64,000 nucleotides of DNA from Bacteroidota bacterium (lineage in GTDB: Bacteria > Bacteroidota > Bacteroidia > Chitinophagales > Chitinophagaceae), in contig VGFT01000003.1 in the NCBI GenBank assembly GCA_016868775.1, positions 248,001-312,000 on the forward strand, written 5' to 3'. The stretch's first letter is position 1, and each line of letters opens with the position of its first letter. Below the pieces are notes generated by a model. It was not told where the DNA came from. It was given only the letters and a program-made list of their open reading frames with translations, and made no database searches. This document shows, in pieces, positions 24,834-58,601 of the stretch. A program made the position numbers and the translations under genes.

Positions 24834-26675
24834 CTAAATAGAGGTATCCCGAAGCCGATCGCCCACAGCTCTGTTCATCACTTCTTCCGTTATTGGTCTG
24901 GCTTTTTCTTCCGCTTCTTTCATCAAGGCTGACAATTGATCGGAATTTCCTTGTTTGATGGCGATTTCCATTGCCTGGCAATGTGCCGTGAGTGCCTCTT
25001 TGTCTTGGGGGGTGATCCACGCTTGGTTGGTGCGTAAAAGTTTATGCAGATTGAGGACCATGGTCTGGGCTTCTTCCATCAAAGAGATTCGAGTACGGGC
25101 TTCTTTATCTGCTTCGGCATGGGTAAACGCCTCCTGCAATTGTTGATCGATCTGATCTTTGGTAAGTGCTTCGGCAGGATTCACCACCACTTCTTGTCGG
25201 ACCCCGCTACGCGATTCATGGGCTTCTACTTTTAGCAGTCCATTGGCATCGATCTGAAAGCGGATCGTGAGCTTGGGAAGTCCGGCTGGCATAGCCGGAA
25301 TGCCGGATACCTGAAAGCTGGCCAGTTTGCGATTGAATTCAATAAGGTCCCGCTCTCCTTGATAGACGGAGATTTGGATGGAGGTTTGGCCGTCTCGTTG
25401 CGTTGTGTATTGCCGACTGATGCTGAGGGGAATCTTTGAGTTGCGCGGAAGAAGTACGTCCATCAACCCGCCGGCCGTCTCGATGCCCAAGGAAAGGGGC
25501 GTAACATCCAATAATAGATGCCCCAGCTCGGTTCCATTCAGCTGTGCCGCTTGCAGCGCCGCTCCGATGGCCACTACTTCATCGGGATTGATTCGATCGT
25601 TGACGGCTAATCCAAAGAAATCGGAAACCCGTTTTTTTACATAGGGCATCCGGGTCGATCCGCCAACCAGGATCACGTCTTGTATATCTTTTCGTTGCAG
25701 ACCGGCATCGGCCAACGCTTGAGTACAGGAATCGATGGTCCGGTCAACCCAAGGTGCGGACAGTTGTTCCAATTCCTTTTTTGTAAGCCGATAGTCAACC
25801 CCCATCCATTCCTTCGAAAACGCATCGGCGGCACTCAACACTTCCTTGGCTTCTTTTGACAGTAGCCGCAAGGCAGCGGCTTGATTTGTGGTGGCATTGG
25901 GGTGTTGACCACTCCAGTGTTGCATCACGGAACGATCGATGTCGTCGCCCCCCAATTGAGTATCGCCGTGGGTGGAGAGCACTTCGAACACACCGGATTC
26001 CACACGCACGACAGATACATCGAAGGTTCCGCCACCGAGATCGAATACAACAATGTGGCGGGGAGATGTAGCGGGATCGCCATACCCGTAGGCAAGACAG
26101 GCAGCTGTTGGTTCATTGATGATCCGCAGCACCTCCAATCCGGCCCGCTCGCCGGCCTGTTTGGTTGCGGCGCGTTGCGATTCATCAAAATAAGCCGGTA
26201 CGGTGATCACTGCTTTTGTAATGGCAGCTTGTTTTTTTGCAGCACCGATTTTTTTCAGGTCGGACAGTATAAAGGAAGAAAGGTCAACCGCACTATACCA
26301 ACGATCCTCAGCACCCTGGATCATCACGCCCTCTTGGGTGTAGGCTGCTCGTTGCAAATAGGAGTAGCGCGCGCGAATGGTCTCGTAATCTGTTGCGGAG
26401 ATGCCGATGAGTCGTTTGACCGAGTATATCACCCGGTCGCCTTCGGTTGACAAAGCGGTTTGTGCAGCGGGCCCGGTCAGGATCTCTCCGCTTTTCGAGA
26501 GGTATACAAGGGAGGGAAACAAGTTTGCCCCTTCGGCTATGGGAATAACCTCGGCGGAATGGGTTTGCGGATCGACCCAAGCGATCAGGCTATTGGTTGT
26601 TCCCAGGTCGATGCCCACGGCCAGTCCCGCTTGAAACAGCGAACCCGATTTGATATCGATGTTGATCTTTGCCAG
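24834..26675 (-). CDS. hscA: Hsp70-family chaperone, HscA type (Fe-S cluster assembly)
   Basis: A 613-residue Hsp70. The nucleotide-binding domain starts VGIDLGTTNSLIAW and includes VITVPAYFDESQR, INEPTAACLAYGYG and VFDLGGGTFDVSVV; ILVGGSTRMP lies near its end. The substrate domain has LLLDVTPLSLGIETAGG. The family resemblance is to HscA rather than DnaK: the acidic DnaK tail is absent and the N-terminal leader AKINIDIKSGS is HscA-like. The frame has no ATG in the right place. The best start is the CTG at 26675 (M-A-K-I-N), just after a -7 box. TTG at 26693 lies before that box. It lies 27 bases after the porU2 frame but has its own promoter. Confidence 0.88.
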   Translation of the reverse strand: MAKINIDIKSGSLFQAGLAVGIDLGTTNSLIAWVDPQTHSAEVIPIAEGANLFPSLVYLSKSGEILTGPAAQTALSTEGDRVIYSVKRLIGISATDYETIRARYSYLQRAAYTQEGVMIQGAEDRWYSAVDLSSFILSDLKKIGAAKKQAAITKAVITVPAYFDESQRAATKQAGERAGLEVLRIINEPTAACLAYGYGDPATSPRHIVVFDLGGGTFDVSVVRVESGVFEVLSTHGDTQLGGDDIDRSVMQHWSGQHPNATTNQAAALRLLSKEAKEVLSAADAFSKEWMGVDYRLTKKELEQLSAPWVDRTIDSCTQALADAGLQRKDIQDVILVGGSTRMPYVKKRVSDFFGLAVNDRINPDEVVAIGAALQAAQLNGTELGHLLLDVTPLSLGIETAGGLMDVLLPRNSKIPLSISRQYTTQRDGQTSIQISVYQGERDLIEFNRKLASFQVSGIPAMPAGLPKLTIRFQIDANGLLKVEAHESRSGVRQEVVVNPAEALTKDQIDQQLQEAFTHAEADKEARTRISLMEEAQTMVLNLHKLLRTNQAWITPQDKEALTAHCQAMEIAIKQGNSDQLSALMKEAEEKARPITEEVMNRAVGDRLRDTSI

Positions 26676-26679
26676 TCCG

Positions 26680-26687
26680 CAAAAGTA
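26680..26687 (-). promoter_or_regulatory. -7 box TACTTTTG for hscA
   Basis: Exact TAnnTTTG match ending four bases before the proposed CTG start, predicting a leaderless mRNA. Confidence 0.5.
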
Positions 26688-26702
26688 AATCAATCTGCCC
26701 GA

Positions 26703-29700
26703 TCAGCGCATCAGATAAATCGTGCCATAGCCTTTGTTCTGCCAGGACGAACCGCCATTGAGGTCTGTATTGGTAGCAACCTTAGTTCCCCGTTTGCTGA
26801 TCACCGCGCGGTAGAGGTAAACGCCGTTGGCCACGGGCTGTCCGTATTGATCGGTTCCATCCCATTTGAATTGGGTGATGTTTCTGCCGATCCGGATCGG
26901 CCCCAACTCGGTGAGTCCGATCTCGCGAATGATCTTTCCGGTAACGGTGAGGATCTCAATTTTGAAATAATCGGGAAGCTCTCGACCGGTGAGGGTGAAA
27001 ACAAAGGCGGTGGAGGTGGTAAACGGATTGGGGTAATTCAGTAATTCGGAGACCTGTGCGGCGTTGATCACCCGAAAACTTACGCGGTAGCTCAATTTTC
27101 CGGCGGGATTGTCGGACTGGTCTTTGCCTTGGATGATCAGCTCATAGGTTCCGTCTTGCCGGAAATCGGGCAGGAAATCCACCACGGCCTCATTGTTGTT
27201 CGTGGGAGCGGAAGCGGCCGGGGGATAGAATTTCAACGTGTCGCCGGCAAAGTAGAAACGCCGGATTTGTCCGTTCGGAAAACGAACCTGCACTTGCATC
27301 ACGGCCGTGTCGGTAAGCAATATCCAACTCGACTGATCGCGCAGCCGGGCTTTAATCAAGGGTGTAGCGGATACAATGTCGTTGTCCAGTATGTGTATGC
27401 CGTCGAAGGTCACATCAAGGGTAGGTGCCAGGCTATCGGCACGAACGAAGAAGGGTCGCGTGACGAGATTATTGAAATGGAATTGTTTGGGTTGGTCGTT
27501 GTTGGGATTGACTTCCAACCAGAATTGATTGTTTCCGGAAAGTTGCCGTGTATCGATCGAGCTACTGAATTGCAAGGTGTCGCCGGCAGGAAGGGGACGG
27601 CGGCGCGGGGTGGGAATGACGTGACGAACATTGTTTCGATCGATCACCCAGCGCGTGGCCAATAAACTATCGAATGGCTGTGCCGAGACGTTCTTGAAGG
27701 CTACGCGGTTTTGCTGTGGCTCTCCCTGAGTAACCGTATCGGTGAACAACCAAAGTAGATTTGGCGCAATAGCTCCCTCGGGAACGGGTTGTCCCGTTAA
27801 CCGCCAAGACCGTAAATTCCACGGTGTGCCGCGCGCGGTATCGATGGTGCGAAGCGATACTCGCAGGTAAGGATACTGTTGGGCGTTGATGGAGCTGATA
27901 TCGCGCGTACCCAGTTGACTGATGTTGTTGACCAGGGTATCGAGTGCTTGTGTCTGTGCATTTTTCCCGATGATGGAGAAGCGAATCACCTCGGTGGGGT
28001 TGTTTGTTTCTTGCGCCTGGCCGTCCCAGAAGGCCTGGCTTCAGCTGCGCATGGGACCAAACCAAGGGGAAGACAACGTACCCGCCGTATCGGGCGTGGC
28101 GTAGACGGCAGTGGTGTAATATCCTTCGTATATGCTGGTAGAGAATCCCCATGCAGCGGGAAAGACGGATTGGCGATCTTTTGAAAAGAACAGGTTGAAT
28201 GCCTTGGGGGCATTGAAGGAGTCCACTTCTGCAAATCCCTGATTTTTCAATTTGTGGTAGAGGGAATTACCCGGGCCATACAAAGTGGTATCGGCCATCC
28301 ATCGGCTGGCGTAGGTATTTCCCGCAACGGCTCCGTTCGCATTGGTACGAGCCACTACGAAATAACCGACGGGGATCAGATCAATAAAATCCATCGCCGC
28401 TTTTCTTCCCAATGCAGTACCCAGGGGGAATCGGAAATTGGTCTCGCGGTTAAAGCCTGCACCACAATTGCCACCGCTACCGTATTGACCACCGGCTCCG
28501 CCGTTATTCACCCAGGGTTTGAGGGTAAAGGGATGTACGACATTAAAAATGATCTCGTCATAGGCACACCCGGCTCCACCGATGATGCGATTGTCAATCG
28601 AAGCATAGTAGTATCCTCCCTGAGAGGAGGCATATGGGTATATCCCATTTTGTGCAAAGAAGAGTCTGGGCAAGCGATCAAAATGAAACGCCCGACCCGC
28701 CGAATCCAGTTTCATTTTTGCGGGGGTAGACTGTGTATGCTGATAGAAATGACTTTGCTGAAAACCCGTGGGGCCATTGCGGATGAAGACGAAGGAAGAG
28801 GTGCTCCAACTCATCGATCCGTCTGTGGAAACCGGTGCTACCCTCCAATAGTAAACGAGACTGTCTTGAAAGGTCACGCCGGGCATAAACTCAAGGAGCC
28901 CACCGGTGCTGGTGATGGACTGGGTATACTTCAATGGCGAATTGAACAGCGCGGTCGTATCGAGTTTCATTCGATACTGTCGGCTAGAAGCCAAGGGGTT
29001 GGCGGTGGAGGCCGTAAGGCGAATGTTTTGGGAGGTAACGATCGAATAGTTGGTTGGCCACACAGGTCGCGCTTCGTCCTCATAGATGACAAAATCCTGT
29101 CCGGTGCAATTGTTGGTTTCAAAGATCTCATCGATGGCATTGGCGGGGTCGATGCAGATCTCGATGCGGTTCTGTCCTTTATCGCGTGCCGCTACGATGG
29201 GAATGTTGTAAGTAACGGTATCGCTAAACCGAATCCCATCGATGCTGTCTCGCAGAATGACAGCGGAGGATTGATCGGGGTAGATTCGTTTGATTTCGAT
29301 AACCGTTTTGGGCGCGATGGCCTGACCCAGGTTATGAGTAATGGCTTGCACTTGAAATGTGGTTTCAGCAACAGAGATGAAAGATGCAGTAACTTTTAGG
29401 TAGGGCTGTTCGATTGCATAATCAGGTTTTACGGCAGAGGCAATCAGGCGCACAGCGGGATCTCCGTGCAATGAAGATTGTTCACAGGTTACGCGAGCAA
29501 AATAATCTACCTGTCCTACTGCATCGAAGACCTGTGTGATTCACTCTTGGATAATCTCACCAATCGTTTTACCATATTTGTTAACGGAGGCTGCCCGCAT
29601 CAAGCGATTGTGGTAGAGATCCAGATAATTCACGATTCCCAATCCCGAGCTGGCCATGACGCCGATGCCTCCCCGCTCACCTGCCAGAACAAATTTTTCG

Positions 29701-31766
29701 GAAATCGTTTCTTTGGTTTGGAGCCGAACGGTGTTGAACGTAAAGAAATTACCGGCATTGCATCCTAAAAGAAAGATCATCGGATATTTACCCGGGTTGT
29801 TGTAGTTCGCCGGGTTATCCAGATTGAATTCGAGTGTGGTAGCAGAACTGTGTCCAAAATAGGTCAACAAGCCGATACCCTCCTCAAATAAACTGTAGAG
29901 ACGAAGCGAGCTTACTTGTTCCACCGGTGCGGTGCTCAGTTTACTGAAGTCATGAACCTTTCCTCCATAATATGTATCGGAAACGATCCGACTAAATCCG
30001 CTCAATGAATTAGCCAAAATATCTCCCAGAACTCCGTCGCTTGAGCCATTGACATGCACCACATTCTTTGTCCACGCCTTCTCTCGGATCAAGGGTGAAA
30101 AGATGGCCAATTGTCGCTCATACTGAATCACCTTATTCATGTACGCCGCAACCTCTGACGGATAGATGACGGATATTCGGCCAATGGAAACGCGGGGCAT
30201 CACGTTCATACCCGGATCGGCGGCCAGTAGGATATCAGAAGCCGGACTACCAAAAGTGGGGATCAATGAAAGGCGATCCAGGTCGGGGTTGGATAGATTC
30301 CCCCGATTCGACACATAATCGACTCCCTTGCCAATGAGCAATACATTTTTTACGGGCATGGAAAAATTGGCACGGGCATAGCGAATAAAATTTCGGACCG
30401 ACAAGGGATGCAGCCGGATCCCAAACGCAAACTGATCGATGAGTTGATCGATCACATAAATTTTCGCCTGATGTCTGCCGCCAACCGCTCCCGTACGGTA
30501 GGAACGATAATCTTCGACCGGGTTGCTGCCGCCCGGACCATTGAATAACGCCGGATGCGAGATGATCAGGTAATTCCCTTGATTGGAGGTTGCCCCATAG
30601 TTGATGAAATTGCGCATTTGGAGCGCCGGGATGGATTGGGGGATGCCGGAGGCCACAGAGCACAGCAGTAAATTTCGAGCGCCGGTGGCCGACAGCAATT
30701 GTACTTTCACCAGTGCGGGGTTGGAAATGTCGCATACATAGCGGCGACCACTGGTCAGATCATACAAAATAGGAGCAACTCCACCATGTGAAAATCCGCT
30801 GATCTCCAAATACCCGCCGGTACTGCTTGCGGGTAAGGAAAACAGGAATTGGGCAGCGCCCCCGAAATTGAAAAGCCGCGGATAAGTCAGCTCCATCTGT
30901 GCAAGCGCCATTCGATCGGGGTTGGCGTTAGATAAATTTCGAACCACAACCGAAGCCGTGCCGGCAGAAAGTACACTGATCGGAAAATTCACCTCCCGGC
31001 GCACGTAATCAAAATAATCCATGGTCGCCTCGTCGTACTGCGTACCGTTGACAAAAATGGAAAACCGACGAGGGTTCAAGGCATTGCCCAATGCAGCTAC
31101 CCGAATGGTGGGGGAATTGGCACCAGGTCCGGTACAGGGAAAGAGTCCGGTCAGGTTCTCCGTCCGGTTTCCATTGTATCCAATGTCGGTGGATGTCCAC
31201 CCCTCTCCCGCATCGTAATTGGAGGAGTAGATAGCAGAACCTACGATGGCCGCGTAGCCGGGATTGATGCGTTGCTAATAGTAAATGCCTTGTGTATGAT
31301 AGAAAAAGGTTTCTGGAGTGGCCCCGGCAACCAAGTTGTTGGGAGTGCTCAGGATCCGCAAGTTGTTACCCGCCGGGTTAACGGTCAGAAAATAAGCGGC
31401 GGTATCGGTTTCTAAGCTCCATGTTTCATTTAACTGGTGGTCGGGGTTTCGGTATAGGGGTTTATCAGGCCGACCATCATTCATCGCTCCCCAGAACTCA
31501 ATAAAATCGCTAGCGCCCAGTGTTCCGCTTGCCACCGAGGTATACAGGGGTACTTGTTGTCCGTTGCGCCAAAGCTGAAAATGTTCTGCCGGTGTGTTGG
31601 CCAGGCCCTGGCTCGCGAGGACGGACTGCTGAATCCGAAACAATCCGTTCGATCCCACTAAAAACTTATAACAGGTCTTGTTGTAGTCGATCCATTCGTT
31701 ATTAAACGGTTGGGCATGCGTGAATCCGCCCCAGATAAGGACTGCGATGAATAGGATGCGTTTCAT
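26703..31766 (-). pseudogene. PorU2-like C25 cysteine peptidase (T9SS sortase) with three in-frame stops
   Basis: One uninterrupted frame register of 1687 codons runs from ATG 31766 (signal peptide, ending near FTHAQ) to the stop at 26703. It carries TAG at 31275-31277 (codon 164), TGA at 29541-29543 (codon 742) and TGA at 28041-28043 (codon 1242). Sequence similarity continues across each stop with no frame change. The gingipain-type dyad is kept: His in TYFGHSS (about 639) and Cys in FLLGCNAG (about 669). FNNEWIDYNKTCYKF and INPGYAAIVG are typical of the long putative sortases called PorU2. The C-terminus has a FlgD-like fold segment (GVYLYRA). It follows porV by seven bases. It is either a recent pseudogene, read through, or a consensus artefact. 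Confidence 0.88.
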
Positions 31767-31773
31767 AGACCGA

Positions 31774-32898
31774 TCATTGATCGAATGGCCTTTTTCGCTT
31801 GCCGGTCTTTATGTCTAATCGAAAAGAAAAAACGTGGGTAAACAAAGGATTGGACTGGTTGGCAAGATTTATGAAGGCATAATCGATCGCTACTTGTTGC
31901 GTTTTGAATCCCACGCCGGCGCCGGGTTGGAAGATCCAGACGCGTTTCTGATTGAGGGTATCTCCATCGGCCAGGGCTTGTTGGAAATTATTGACACCAA
32001 CCCGGAGGAAAAACTGGTTCTTGACACTCAACTCCAGTCCCAACCGCGGATCGATGCTAAAAAGATCGCTTCGGAACAAGGTGTTGCGTTTTCCATCGAA
32101 AGTGAGATCGGTATTCAATTCGGCCAACAAGGAAGAACTCTTTCCGAAGTTAAACCGCCGGGCTGCACCAAGTACCAGCCGGGGTGCGGTGAGTTCAGAA
32201 GAACGAACCGGAATCTCATTGTTGGTCAGGTTCAAGACCTCTTTTTCCTGCTCGGTGAATCGAAAGGACCAGGCATTGAACGTGGTGGTTACATCGCGGG
32301 CCGTAATGCCCCATTCCCATTTTTCGCTTTCGTACTGAATGCCAACATCCGCTCCGAAACCCCAGGCCTTGGCAAACTTGCCAACGCTTCGGTGAATCAC
32401 TTTGGTATTGACGCCGAATCGCCAATACCCCTCATCGCTTTTCGTCTTTAATTCTCGAGCATAAGTTAGCAAGAAGGCATAGTCAGCCGAAGAGAAGGCC
32501 TGAATATTATTGTAGTTAAGAGACCCATCAGGTTCCACCAAGAAAAGGGTGTTCATAATGTCGTCGACTGCAAACCGAAGCGCCGTGAAGCCAAGGGCAT
32601 GTTTTTTATCCTCGCTGCGCTTGGCATAACTCAGGTAATCATATTTGCCGATACCCGCAAAATAGGAAGCGTGCATGAGATTGAACTGCGCTTCATTGCC
32701 GATCTGGATCAACCCGGCCGGATTCCAGTACCCGGCTGTTCCGTCTGCTACCGTGGCCACTTGTGCTCCACCCATGGACAATCCACGCGCACCTGCTCCA
32801 ATGTTTAAAAATTCGTTCGAATATTTTCGGAACTGTCCGCGTACAGAAAGTATCGACAGGTAAAAAAATATGAGCAACAACTGATTTTTCAGGCTCAT
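31774..32898 (-). CDS. porV: PorV-like T9SS outer membrane beta-barrel
   Basis: A 374-residue protein with a signal peptide (cleavage near SVRGQ) and the PorV/PorQ signature FLNIGAGARGLSMGGAQVA-like start plus GTAGYWNPAGL. The remainder is an amphipathic beta-barrel of the OmpP1/FadL-like group. PorV collects cargo from the translocon and passes it to the sortase PorU at the cell surface. Adjacency to a PorU-type gene fits this pairing; PorQ or another family member is possible. Intact, unlike its neighbour. The -7 box lies at 32949-32956. Confidence 0.85.
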   Translation of the reverse strand: MSLKNQLLLIFFYLSILSVRGQFRKYSNEFLNIGAGARGLSMGGAQVATVADGTAGYWNPAGLIQIGNEAQFNLMHASYFAGIGKYDYLSYAKRSEDKKHALGFTALRFAVDDIMNTLFLVEPDGSLNYNNIQAFSSADYAFLLTYARELKTKSDEGYWRFGVNTKVIHRSVGKFAKAWGFGADVGIQYESEKWEWGITARDVTTTFNAWSFRFTEQEKEVLNLTNNEIPVRSSELTAPRLVLGAARRFNFGKSSSLLAELNTDLTFDGKRNTLFRSDLFSIDPRLGLELSVKNQFFLRVGVNNFQQALADGDTLNQKRVWIFQPGAGVGFKTQQVAIDYAFINLANQSNPLFTHVFSFRLDIKTGKRKRPFDQ

Positions 32899-33072: not shown

Positions 33073-34350
33073 ATGAATCTGTTCGAAGAATTACGCTGGA
33101 GAGGAATGATTCAGGACATCATGCCCGGTACGGAAGATCAGTTGAATCGGGAAATGACCACCGGATACGTGGGTTTTGACCCAACCGCGGAAAGTTTGCA
33201 CATCGGCAGCCTCGTACCCATCTTGCTGTTGGTACACTTGCAGCGAGCCGGGCACAAGCCCATTGCCCTAATCGGGGGAGCCACCGGAATGGTCGGTGAT
33301 CCGAGCGGAAAAAGCGAGGAACGAAGCTTATTGGATGAGGCAACGCTCGAAAAAAACATCCGGGGTGTGCGGGCGCAACTGGAAAAATTCCTCGATTTCT
33401 CCCCCGAAAAACCCAACGCTGCGGAACTCGTCAACAATTACGATTGGTTCAAGCAGATCGGATTCATTGAATTTTTGCGAGATACCGGCAAGCACATCAC
33501 CGTCAATTACATGATGGCGAAGGACAGCGTAAAAAACCGTTTGGAAGGGGAGACCGGCATCAGCTATACCGAATTTGCTTATCAATTGATGCAGGGATAT
33601 GATTTTTATTGGCTGTATACGCATAAGAATTGCAAATTGCAGATGGGCGGAAGCGATCAGTGGGGCAACATGACGACCGGAACCGAATTGATTCGTCGAA
33701 AGTCCGGAGGGCAAGCCTTTGTTTTTACGACACCGCTGGTGACCAAAGCTGATGGCGGTAAATTTGGAAAGACCGAATCCGGAAACATCTGGCTCTCGGC
33801 CGAAAAAACATCGCCCTATCAATTCTATCAGTTCTGGCTGAATGCGAGCGACGACGATGCCCGCCGGTGGATTCAACTTTTTACCTTCTTGGATCAACCC
33901 ACCATCCAACAACTGGAACAAGATCATGTAAAAGACCCCTCCCAACGGATCGTGCAAAAAAAACTGGCCGGTTGCCTGACGGAGTATGTACACGGAGCAG
34001 AAGCGTTGGAAACTGCCCGGTTGACCACAGATAAATTATTCGCCCAACAAACAACCCCTATTGAAACATTGAGCCGAGCCGATCTATTGGCCATTGAGGG
34101 AGTGGTTACGTGCACCGCCGATCGCAGCCAACTGGAACAGGGAATCGATGTTGTTAGCTTTCTGGCGTTGGTCGGCGTCTTGCCCAGCAAGGGAGAAGCC
34201 CGTAAACTGGTTCAAGCCGGAGGAATCAGCATCAACCGCCGCAAAATTGAAGAAATCGACTTTCGGATCGACGCAAGCCTGCTACTTCAGGGCGAATTCA
34301 TACTCATTCAAAGAGGGAAAAAGACCTATTACCTGGTTCAGGCTAGGTAA
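33073..34350 (+). CDS. tyrS: Tyrosyl-tRNA synthetase
   Basis: A 425-residue class I synthetase. The HIGH-like motif is HIGS (GFDPTAESLHIGSLVP) and the KMSKS-like motif is KFGKT. Tyrosine and ATP-binding residues lie in YDFYWLY and MGGSDQWGN. A C-terminal S4 RNA-binding domain (about 360-425) includes VQAGGISINRRKI. It is followed closely by tRNA-Gln. Confidence 0.97.
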   Translation: MNLFEELRWRGMIQDIMPGTEDQLNREMTTGYVGFDPTAESLHIGSLVPILLLVHLQRAGHKPIALIGGATGMVGDPSGKSEERSLLDEATLEKNIRGVRAQLEKFLDFSPEKPNAAELVNNYDWFKQIGFIEFLRDTGKHITVNYMMAKDSVKNRLEGETGISYTEFAYQLMQGYDFYWLYTHKNCKLQMGGSDQWGNMTTGTELIRRKSGGQAFVFTTPLVTKADGGKFGKTESGNIWLSAEKTSPYQFYQFWLNASDDDARRWIQLFTFLDQPTIQQLEQDHVKDPSQRIVQKKLAGCLTEYVHGAEALETARLTTDKLFAQQTTPIETLSRADLLAIEGVVTCTADRSQLEQGIDVVSFLALVGVLPSKGEARKLVQAGGISINRRKIEEIDFRIDASLLLQGEFILIQRGKKTYYLVQAR

Positions 34351-44245: not shown

Positions 44246-45751
44246 TCAACGTGTTGCCGCCTCCACATTCAAACGACCCCATCCGTAAGAAGATGATTTT
44301 TGCGGATAGCCACTGCTGTTTCGCTGCAAACGACTCACCAGCTGATCTCTTGTCAACCGCGGATACCTGGACCAAACCAATGCGGCCATACCCGCCATGC
44401 TGGCTGTAGCAACCGACGAGCCACCCACCGTGGAAGGCCAGTCGCCTGCATCAGCCAACGAGAGCGGATACATTCCATCAGCCTGATGCTCCATGGTTAC
44501 GACAAAATCTACTTCGGGACCCTTGTGACAAACCTTACACGCATCCAGGAAAAGCGTATTCTTGACACCTGTCACCGCCTGAACCTCCGACAAGGATGCC
44601 GGGAATATGACACCGGGCCAACCCGACGTCCATCCAAACGAAGTACCCGCCGCAGAAAAGATCAATTTTCCTTTTGCATGCGCATAGCGGATCGCATCGG
44701 TCAGGTAGCCGCTGCTGGTGATCCGTCCCATACTCATGCTTATGATTCGAACATCCCTGCGATTGGCAGCGTTGGTATAGGCATCAACCACCCCCTTCAA
44801 TTCACGCGGCTCATCCAAAAACACATCAGTGGCTGCCCGGCACGTGACCAAATCACAATTGTAGGCAATCCCCACAGCGTTCCCATCTACGCCTCTGGGA
44901 CCTGCCACGACCCCGGCCATGGAGGTACCATAACCACATCCATCATTCGATGTTTCCGGTGATCCCACCGGAATACCCACCACCATATTTTGAGGCAGCG
45001 TTACGATTCGCTCCAAGGAACGGCCGTAGGATTCACCCGAATTAATCGTAACCCCTAAATTTCCCTGCGCCCAGGAACAACCCGTATCGATCACAAAAAC
45101 CTTCACTCCTTTCCCGCTGCATCGACTCCATGCCTTGTGAATTCCATGGGCTGAATAATTCCAGGACTGCTTGGCTGCCGGAGCAATCGGGTCATAATGG
45201 ATTCCGGCGCGAATATCTCAATTAGGAGTATTGTTGCCACAACCACTGCTCGATTCGACCTGTGGAATACCCGCAACCAGTTTTCGATCATAACTCAAGG
45301 GCTCAACATACCGAACATATGGAGAGGAAAGAAGCCTGCGCACTGCCCCAAGACTCGATACGCGCAACAAAATCACGGGTAAAAATTTCTCTTGCCAGAT
45401 CTCCAACTCTTTTGCCCCGGATAACAACGCCTCGCGAATCACCTGCTCCCGGGCATGTCGCCATTCGCCTGCTTGCAGATCGATCTTGCCCAACCAACCT
45501 GAATCCGGCTGAAAATACCTGGGCTGATACCCCACGGCCACCAATGAATCGGAATGCACAATAGCCGACCAAAGAAAAAGCGGATCGGTCGTTGCCCACT
45601 CCATTTTTCCATTTTGCTTACAAGCCGAATACACCCGCGCATTGATGTGTTCCACCGAGAACAATTCCGGCTGCCGGGCGGAAGGCGACCAGGTTGTTTT
45701 TTGACAAGCAGAAAAAAACAGGAGAAAACAAATTGCGAGAAAAAAATGCAT
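44246..45751 (-). pseudogene. S8 serine protease lipoprotein with in-frame TGA and altered catalytic His
   Basis: The frame runs from ATG 45751 to the stop at 44246 (about 501 codons). The N-terminus is a lipoprotein signal (LLFFSAC then Q), followed by a prodomain-like region. A TGA at 45218-45220 (codon 178) interrupts the frame, but coding sequence resumes at once (DIRAGIHYDPIAP) into the subtilisin domain. Catalytic Asp is in VFVIDTG and Ser in GGSSVATASMAG. The His of the HGTxxAG motif is Tyr (CGYGTSMAG; codon at 44930-44932), one base from CAT. The loss of both continuity and a triad residue argues for decay. A distal fragment could in principle start at 45106, but would lack export and activity. 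Confidence 0.85.
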
Positions 45752-45823
45752 AAGAATTATTGAGCGCACAAAATAGCTTTGGACCCGGGTCGGTTCCAAG
45801 GGAAAAAGACAGAAAAAGAAACG

Positions 45824-55827: not shown

Positions 55828-56595
55828 ATGAAAACCACTCGTATTCCCGTCTTTCTGATGGTTGGCCTGCTGGCCGCATTAAATTCCTGCTCGGGAAAAA
55901 AAGAAATACTCACCTTATCCGAAATCACGGACTACGCTCCGCTGACCGTCGGAAAATACATTACCTACCGAGTTGATTCGTTGGTGTTCCCCAATTTTGG
56001 AAGAAGCATAGAGATCCGCAAATACCAGATCAAACATGTGATCGATGCCGTATTTACAGACGGAATGGGACGACCCTCCTACCGAATTCTTCGCTATCAA
56101 ACCGATTCCACCGCCAGCAGACCTTGGCAACCCAATGGAACCTATTATATTACTCCCTCGAGTGATCAACTCGAAGTAGTGGAGGACAATCTTCGTGTCC
56201 TCAAATTGCATCAACCTCTTCGAGCCGACAATACCTGGAAAGGAAATCGCTTTCTTCCCTCGGATACGCATGAACCCCTGTACAACTTTAGCAACGACGA
56301 CGACATGGCGAATTGGGAATTTAAGATCGAAGGTGCCCCAGCCACGTTCACCTACCGCCGAAGGACCTATAACAATGTATTGTCGGTTGAAGCGGTGAAC
56401 GATATACTCAATGTACCCATTACCAATACCAATGTATTTGCTTCCTACTCCCGCTCGGTTGAGAAATTTGCCAAGAACATCGGATTGGTATATCGCCAAC
56501 ACGAGCTATGGGAACATCAAACCAATACCGGTGGCAGTGGCGGCCCCTATAAAGTCGGATTTGGCATCACACAGTGGATGATCGACCACAACTAA
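55828..56595 (+). CDS. Putative lipoprotein of unknown function
   Basis: A 255-residue protein with a lipoprotein signal (AALNSC then S). The mature part is mostly beta-strand by pattern, with YAPLTVGKYITYRVDS near the N-terminus, a common opening in uncharacterised Bacteroidota lipoproteins. No catalytic motif is seen. It lies between mnmA and the S8 protease in the same direction. Confidence 0.8.
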   Translation: MKTTRIPVFLMVGLLAALNSCSGKKEILTLSEITDYAPLTVGKYITYRVDSLVFPNFGRSIEIRKYQIKHVIDAVFTDGMGRPSYRILRYQTDSTASRPWQPNGTYYITPSSDQLEVVEDNLRVLKLHQPLRADNTWKGNRFLPSDTHEPLYNFSNDDDMANWEFKIEGAPATFTYRRRTYNNVLSVEAVNDILNVPITNTNVFASYSRSVEKFAKNIGLVYRQHELWEHQTNTGGSGGPYKVGFGITQWMIDHN

Positions 56596-56600
56596 TCCGC

Positions 56601-58601
56601 ATGCCCACGCGCCATTCTTTTTTCTTCTTGATCCTGCTCATAGGAATTTGTCCCCTGAAGAGCAATGGCCAATTTTCCCGCTACATCGTGCGACTCAAAC
56701 ACAAAGGCGGCTCCACCTATTCGTTCAGCAATCCATCCGCCTTCCTCTCTCCCCGCGCCTTGAGCAAACGCTCCCGTTACAGCATTCCGATCGACAGTCT
56801 GGACCTGCCCGTGAGTACCGCGCAGCTCAACCAGCTCGCAGCCATTCCCAACCTCACGATACTGAATCCATCCAAATGGCTCAATGCCGTAAGCATTCAA
56901 ACAACCGACCCCGCTGCCATTAATACCCTAAATGCACTGCCGTTTGTACAATCTGTAACAAGACTCGCCGCTCGCATGCGCCCGGAGCCGTCGGTAGATA
57001 AATTCGAGCCCGTAGAAGAAACCGCACCCGAGAATCCTTCACTTCGAAATCAATCCGATTATTTCAATTACGGAACCGGCTCCGGTAATGAGATCCGGCT
57101 GCATCAAGGCGATTTTTTACACAACATTGGACTGCGTGGACAAGGCATGCACATCGCCCTGCTCGACGGCGGATTTTATAACTACACGACGCTGAAAGCA
57201 TTTGATAGCATCAACGCCAACAACCAAGTGCTGAGCACCTGGGATTTTGTCGCCCGAAATGCCAGCGTGACGGAAGATCATCCGCACGGCATGCAGTGCT
57301 TGTCGACCATCGCTGCCAACATACCCGGCCAATTCATCGGCAAAGCCCCCAAAGCCTCCTTCCACTTGTTTCGCACCGAAGATGTAGCCAATGAATATCC
57401 CATAGAGGAATTCAACTGGGTCTGCGGGGCCGAACGAGCCGACAGTGCCGGAGCAGACCTGATCTCCTCCTCCGTTGGTTATTATGATTTCGATAACCCC
57501 ACATTCAATTACACCTACGCGCAAATGAATGGCAATACCACGATCGCTGCCATCGGAGCTGATATCGGCGCTAAAAAAGGATTGCTGATCCTCAACTCCG
57601 CCGGAAACGAAGGAGGCAATGCCTGGAAATACATCATCACCCCCGCGGACGCCGATAGCATTCTCTCTGTGGGTGCAGTAAATTCAAGTGGGGTTGTCGG
57701 ATCGTTCTCAAGCTATGGTCCAAGTAGCGACGGACAGATCAAACCCGATGTAGCCTCGGTAGGCGTCGCCGCCCTGGTTCAATCATCGAGCAACAACATT
57801 GCTACGGCGAACGGAACGTCTTTTTCCTGTCCCAATATGGCCGGACTCGCCGCTTGCCTCTGGCAAGGATTTCCAGAAGTAAATAATATGCGTATCATCC
57901 AGGTGCTCCGCGAATCCTCCGATCGTTTTAATAATCCAAACGACCGCAGCGGCTATGGCATCCCCAACCTGAAAAACGCCTTTGGGAAATTATTGATCGA
58001 TTATGCAAAAGGCACCGCTACACTTAGCAATTGCCTGGCAACGATCCAATGGAACAGCAAAGACATCGCCGCCATGCGTTATGAAATCGAACAAAAACTA
58101 GTGGGAGAAGTCAACTTCACCAAAATCGGCGAGCTGGCGGCAAAACCCGGCACGATCATCAACAATCAATCCTATCAATTTACTCATTCCCTTGCCACGG
58201 CCACACCCGGACTCGTTCAGTTTCGCATCCGACAGATTATCGATACGACTGCCAATACGTATACAGCCCTCTACCTTGACACCGTTCAAGTAAATCTTCC
58301 ACTAAACTGCAACAGCAGTGGCACAAACCCGAACGGAGAACTGAACGCGTACCTGGCGCCCAATCCTTCAGCGCTAGGTCCAACTTACCTGGTCATCGAA
58401 AACATGGAAGCGTTGGGAAGCATTCGCGTTGAGTGGATCGATAGCAAAGGAGGTCGGGTGCGGGCAACCACCCTTAACAAACAGGCCGGCAAACAATCTT
58501 TTCTGCTTCCGGGTGAGGACCTTCCCTTTGGAATATATCAATTGCGACTGGCCCGAAACAACAAATGGATCGGAACGCTTCGATGGATGCATTTACGCTG
58601 A
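56601..58601 (+). CDS. Subtilisin-family (S8) protease with T9SS sorting domain
   Basis: A 666-residue exported protease. A signal peptide (cleavage near KSNGQ) and prodomain precede the catalytic domain, with all three residues intact: Asp in HIALLDGGF, His in EDHPHGMQCLS and Ser in NGTSFSCPNMAG. The last 80 or so residues look like the type A T9SS C-terminal domain: APNPSALGPTYLVIEN, then LPFGIYQLRLARN and an Arg-ending strand. It should be exported through the type IX system whose PorV and damaged PorU2-like genes are in this window. The 3' end overlaps the convergent methyltransferase by nine bases. Confidence 0.9.
   Translation: MPTRHSFFFLILLIGICPLKSNGQFSRYIVRLKHKGGSTYSFSNPSAFLSPRALSKRSRYSIPIDSLDLPVSTAQLNQLAAIPNLTILNPSKWLNAVSIQTTDPAAINTLNALPFVQSVTRLAARMRPEPSVDKFEPVEETAPENPSLRNQSDYFNYGTGSGNEIRLHQGDFLHNIGLRGQGMHIALLDGGFYNYTTLKAFDSINANNQVLSTWDFVARNASVTEDHPHGMQCLSTIAANIPGQFIGKAPKASFHLFRTEDVANEYPIEEFNWVCGAERADSAGADLISSSVGYYDFDNPTFNYTYAQMNGNTTIAAIGADIGAKKGLLILNSAGNEGGNAWKYIITPADADSILSVGAVNSSGVVGSFSSYGPSSDGQIKPDVASVGVAALVQSSSNNIATANGTSFSCPNMAGLAACLWQGFPEVNNMRIIQVLRESSDRFNNPNDRSGYGIPNLKNAFGKLLIDYAKGTATLSNCLATIQWNSKDIAAMRYEIEQKLVGEVNFTKIGELAAKPGTIINNQSYQFTHSLATATPGLVQFRIRQIIDTTANTYTALYLDTVQVNLPLNCNSSGTNPNGELNAYLAPNPSALGPTYLVIENMEALGSIRVEWIDSKGGRVRATTLNKQAGKQSFLLPGEDLPFGIYQLRLARNNKWIGTLRWMHLR

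Follow-up and report, generated by a model that had tools for sequence, protein, structure and literature searches.

What is a gene whose reading frame keeps one register for 5 kb and has three stop codons inside it? The question is raised by a locus in a 64,000-nucleotide stretch of DNA (the window, G000:C3:248001-312000) from the 2.03-Mb genome G000; five related records, which carry the labels Bacteroidota, Chitinophagaceae or Bacteroidia, were assembled from metagenomes. On the minus strand, positions 26703..31766 form a single frame of 1688 codons, which resembles a gene of the type IX secretion system (T9SS), porU2. An earlier note on this DNA had described three stops in one register without a frameshift, and this description was confirmed: a TAG at codon 164 (31275..31277), a TGA at codon 742 (29541..29543) and a second TGA at codon 1242 (28041..28043), all on the minus strand. 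With the natural end, these are the only stops, and no frameshift occurs anywhere in the frame, which rules out a frameshift as the cause of the interruption.

The stops divide the stretch into four pieces, all read from the minus strand. Piece 1 (31278..31766, 163 residues) is the N-terminal part of PorU2 and covers positions 2-164 of the NCBIfam profile NF052324 (‘putative type IX secretion system sortase PorU2’) with 193.9 bits. Piece 2 (29544..31274, 577 codons) holds the bulk of the Pfam Peptidase_C25 domain, with the second stop within the match to this domain and close to its end, and covers profile positions 168-733 with 495.9 bits. Piece 3 (28044..29540, 499 codons) has a Pfam CARDB domain match and covers profile positions 743-879 with 114 bits, and piece 4 (26706..28040, 445 codons) ends the stretch with a FlgD_ig-like domain (Pfam), which may have a sorting role. 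Searched as a whole, with one TGA and one TAG read through, the stretch reaches 845 bits, the cut-off being 450. The PorU2 model thus spans the first two stops; the third lies outside the model, yet within full-length homologues. The four pieces are evidently successive parts of one PorU2-type protein.

In its C25 domain, its His and Cys, its C-terminal FlgD_ig-like domain and the porV2 gene upstream, the locus is like PorU2; it differs in that the gene is cut by three stops and would not be a working member. With one TAG and two TGA inside, it lacks the complete open reading frame of the PorU2 family. The presumed catalytic residues, His 639 (29850..29852, minus strand) and Cys 669 (29760..29762, minus strand), do not vary among the 30 sequences aligned, that of G000 included, which bears out the earlier statement that the dyad is kept; by analogy with the family, they would be the catalytic pair of PorU2. 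Canonical PorU (NF033707), as known from Porphyromonas gingivalis, shares the C25 peptidase family and the T9SS setting. However, three of the porU2 pieces reach only 59.2, 60.8 and 17.4 bits with that model, whose cut-off is 420 bits, and no score was reported for the fourth. By its family name, PorU2 is a putative sortase, or CTD peptidase. PorU2 is not named in the papers found in our literature search, as far as their accessible text goes, nor was a paper on PorU2 loss found there.

Comparison with relatives shows that the interruptions are private to this genome. Across 42 genomes of the genus, PorU2 matches contain inner stops in G000 only; the disabling changes are therefore absent from the orthologues. 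For the alignment, 29 of 34 fetched loci were used, namely those with frames of at least 1600 codons (28 from the genus and one from another family of the order); shorter or split loci (G002, G005, G008, G010, G046) were left out, and G050, G053 and G054 were not fetched. All 29 homologues have one unbroken frame of 1679-1742 codons. If the pieces were instead separate genes or domains with starts of their own, as the downstream frames obtained from alternative starts might suggest, homologues should also be divided; the 29, which were admitted for their length, each keep a single frame, and in the other genomes of the genus the PorU2 model meets no inner stop, a comparison independent of the 1600-codon choice. 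Moreover, the first in-frame start after stop 1 is 62 codons downstream. We consider separate genes scarcely credible.

Two further features of the relatives were observed. In G002:C166 (L056), PorU2 is split over two frames with extra DNA between them; this genome is of poor quality (74% complete), and the split may be a further break or an assembly fault. In addition, the identity of relatives to the PorU2 of G000 varies along the gene. It is 68-73% over the catalytic piece in G014, G041 and G056 alike, and over the C-terminal half it is 46-53% in G014 and G041 and 72-73% in G056. The gene would be a mosaic, arisen perhaps by recombination.

It has also been proposed that the stops are read through or recoded, which would yield nested products of 163, 741 and 1241 residues in addition to the full-length protein. 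The single frame is kept, and dN/dS is low after each stop, as this proposal would predict, although recency alone accounts for the low ratios. Read-through gains no support from the comparison with relatives: the inner stops occur in no other PorU2 match of the genus, and the three stop columns, both TGA columns included, hold residues of differing character among the 29 aligned relatives. Because of this mixture, one reassigned codon meaning does not fit. Neither does the translation apparatus point this way. The 32 tRNA matches are ordinary ones, and none has a cta, tca or tta anticodon, in a set that is incomplete, as Asp and Ile tRNAs are also missing, and all three kinds of stop end ordinary frames: among 304 non-overlapping frames of at least 200 codons in 462 kb, two PorU2 pieces included, TAA ends 155, TGA 117 and TAG 32. 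Codon reassignment is thus disfavoured by anticodons, stop usage and residue columns together, and read-through in general appears very unlikely.

A third alternative is that living cells have an intact porU2 and that the stops come from mixed strains in the consensus or from sequencing errors. This would agree with a gene that is otherwise nearly undecayed. However, the window has no ambiguous bases, and the genome consists of 10 contigs and is listed as 100% complete with 0% contamination, figures that are also compatible with a mixture of close strains. Random errors, furthermore, would not cluster. In a Markov-model scan of coding potential over 462 kb of G000, which replaced a codon-score scan so strict that it missed even the PorU2 stops, 240 stops had at least 80 open codons on both sides and 35 were flagged. 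Five of these were accepted as interrupting stops: the three in PorU2, one in an S8 peptidase gene and one in a PorP/SprF gene. Of the 30 left, 26 are followed by an in-frame start no more than 13 codons away, and four weaker candidates (C3 107458, 176547, 264824 and 272834) have their first start 15 to 25 codons away. The presence of three of the five accepted stops in one 5-kb gene has a probability of about 1e-5, calculated after the fact with the gene given beforehand, or about 1e-4 when the four weaker candidates are also counted. An artefact is improbable, in our view, although the clustering, too, would be compatible with a mixture of close strains.

The two other accepted stops concern genes of different kinds. 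The S8 peptidase-like gene (window 44246-45817, minus strand) has an in-frame TGA at 45218-45220 that separates a 199-codon N-terminal stretch from the catalytic domain (323 codons). It has YGT at what we take to be the place of the catalytic His motif, and it is possibly another pseudogene. A second S8 peptidase, which the earlier note had placed at 56601 and described as a protease with a T9SS sorting domain, is intact (frame 56574-58601), but a sorting domain was found neither with Pfam (E <= 1) nor with NCBIfam (E <= 0.001). Comparison of the N-terminal piece of the interrupted gene with this peptidase gave nothing; the catalytic pieces of the two are distant relatives. On contig C4, a gene for a PorP/SprF-family T9SS membrane protein (G000:C4:109331-109999; L094:19331-19999, minus strand) contains a TAG at C4:109739-109741, and its frame opens just 104 codons ahead of this stop.

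How recently the gene was broken was estimated by comparison with G007, the closest intact relative, which is 80-86% identical over the four pieces. The number of residues unique to one of the two sisters is similar: 96 in G000 vs 85 in G007 with G056 as outgroup (chi2 0.67) and 71 vs 64 with G041 (chi2 0.36). With G014, the excess is larger (85 vs 61, chi2 3.95) and by itself would suggest that G000 has accelerated somewhat. Among the controls, PorU gives 58 vs 49 (outgroup G014), and PorV2 gives 27 vs 17 (G056), 22 vs 13 (G041) and 27 vs 17 (G014). At otherwise invariant columns of PorU2, G000 has five private changes and G007 two, a slight sign of relaxation in G000. dN/dS against G007 is 0.087 for piece 2, 0.065 for piece 3 and 0.066 for piece 4, and the corresponding ratios of PorU and PorV2 are 0.089 and 0.063; values are given for this pair only, as dS is saturated for piece 1 and for most outgroup comparisons. 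No break in constraint is visible in these ratios at stops two and three, and the alignment of the two PorU2 sequences contains a single inner indel, of four residues.

The stops themselves provide a rough clock. In the PorU2 of G007, 525 single changes would make a stop and 11076 would be missense, from which three stops imply about 0.01 neutral substitutions per site. A rough joint likelihood, under uniform mutation and an assumed share of 0.55 of missense changes visible to the test, also peaks near 0.01 per site; the expected number of stops is then 1.75, and three or more have a probability of 0.26. At this divergence about 20 extra missense changes are expected, and the excess seen is 11 (SD ~13), or -5 (SD 24) when scaled by PorU. 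Neutral decay of about 1% divergence can thus, on this estimate, explain both the three stops and the small missense excess. The state of the gene would be that of a pseudogene just after loss, in which stops lead missense slightly, not significantly. Neutral decay that yields three stops, no frameshift and so small an excess of missense changes is somewhat one-sided, but chance can account for it.

If porU2 no longer gives a sortase, does the T9SS of this genome lack one? Immediately upstream, porV2 (31774..32898, minus strand; NF052325, 525.8 bits) is intact, as had been stated of a neighbouring porV, but its identity is PorV2; canonical PorV lies on contig C4 (G000:C4:26246-27334). porU2 thus stands behind porV2, and the pair is flanked by tyrS (33073..34350, plus strand) and by an HscA/DnaK-type chaperone gene (24834..26693, minus strand) whose best model is HscA, with a score below its cut-off. 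On the same contig as PorV, a genome search for another porU found an intact canonical PorU (G000:C4:22674-26015), with a 1155-codon frame, a C25 match of 308 bits and both the GHG and the TCDF motif, which presumably mark the His and Cys places. SprA is present as well, and the type A sorting domain is matched 18 times in the genome. In P. gingivalis, PorU cleaves the CTD and joins cargo to A-LPS, and PorV serves as the shuttle (PMC10202324, PMC5562754). The proposal in the earlier note that a surface sortase had been lost, leaving partner and cargo stranded, fails in this genome, where canonical PorU is intact. Its alternative, that the gene turned into a pseudogene very recently and that another sortase is encoded elsewhere, agrees with that intact PorU and with a porU2 frame that is otherwise little decayed.

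We therefore favour, with a probability of about 0.87, the reading that the porU2 stretch became a pseudogene very recently and that it encoded a dispensable second sortase in a lineage that retains its canonical PorU. The constraint kept until recently, the intact PorU, PorV and SprA, and other PorU2 losses in the genus support it. The product would have been another putative T9SS sortase from the C25 family, and it became dispensable in this lineage, presumably as canonical PorU stayed. Three nonsense mutations would then have gathered within about 1% neutral divergence, ahead of clear missense decay or indels. From the native start, the product is limited to piece 1, and translation would end at 163 residues, short of the catalytic domain. 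A PorU2 sortase is thus not expected; the type A cargo would be processed by PorU, and the two sortases would be redundant. Against this reading, the excess of 85 vs 61 with outgroup G014 is stronger than those with the other two outgroups, and the intact PorV2 could mean that the PorU2/PorV2 pair still matters. In PorV2 of G000, three private changes occur at near-invariant columns and in that of its sister G007 none; a further 23 PorV2 sequences from the genus include four with such changes (4, 2, 1 and 1). Drift may be starting in this gene too. Recent nonsense pseudogenes in reducing bacterial genomes combine intact relatives, stops, little other decay and the presence of a paralogue. porU2 is like them in these features, with no difference in kind, and ordinary gene loss is most likely.

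The loss is not the only one in the genus. The families were sought in all 42 genomes, 33 of which are good (completeness of 90% or more, contamination of 5% or less). Among these 33, 17 have both PorU and PorU2 (the PorU of G008 being partial, at a contig end), 11 have PorU2 only (the gene of G054 lying in two contigs), two have an intact PorU only (G000 and G045) and in three, G003, G011 and G044, no C25 peptidase match was found, absence being weaker evidence than presence in draft genomes. None was found in G013 either, which is 84% complete. SprA and sorting-domain matches are present in 42 of 42 genomes, and PorV is above its cut-off in 40; the SprA match in G040 (G040:C143:187-7275) contains two TGA. 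The four genomes without a C25 match all have SprA, PorV and 10-14 sorting-domain matches (10-11 in the subclade of G003, G011 and G044), and, provided that their assemblies are correct, would have a type IX system that lacks a known sortase.

On an rpoB tree that covers 36 of the 42 genomes (midpoint rooted, drawn without support values, G013 not included), the PorU2 losses of G000, of G045 and of the group G044/G003/G011 stand apart, and this group is nested in a clade whose other members are without PorU and PorV2. Deletion remnants of PorU2 were found in G044 and G045, apparently at the same locus, with flanks judged by eye. In G045 (L060:6084-6385), porV2 is intact and shows no private change where columns are nearly invariant; behind it, porU2 is reduced to roughly 39 codons from its start and 61 from its end, in different frames. 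In G044 (L061:3866-4219), porV2 is absent, and an internal in-frame deletion has fused codons 1-46 with codons 1614-1690 (G042 numbering), and what is left is a small open frame that runs from the N-terminal end straight into the C-terminal one; this small frame has no match in G003 or G011 at E <= 1. Six small genomes (G006, G016, G017, G042, G046 and G055) have PorU2 and PorV over their cut-offs, and PorU and PorV2 not; without PorV2, their PorU2 would have to work with PorV. Some genomes have PorU2 without PorU and others PorU without PorU2, and from this pattern PorU2 appears to be a second sortase that is redundant in part. A broader proposal, which we hold tentatively and at somewhat less than even odds, is that PorU and PorU2 are interchangeable in the genus and have each been lost several times, with the secretion pore and sorting-domain cargo retained, that the T9SS of G003, G011 and G044 runs without a C25 sortase and that the window represents the earliest stage of loss.

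A broken porU2 is ordinary in itself, and it provides a useful snapshot of sortase loss at its beginning. The wider pattern in the genus is more interesting than the single break, as it appears to include natural losses of each sortase and of the two together. It makes two questions testable: whether PorU2 is in fact a sortase that can stand in for PorU, and whether a T9SS that has sorting-domain cargo can function without a C25 sortase.
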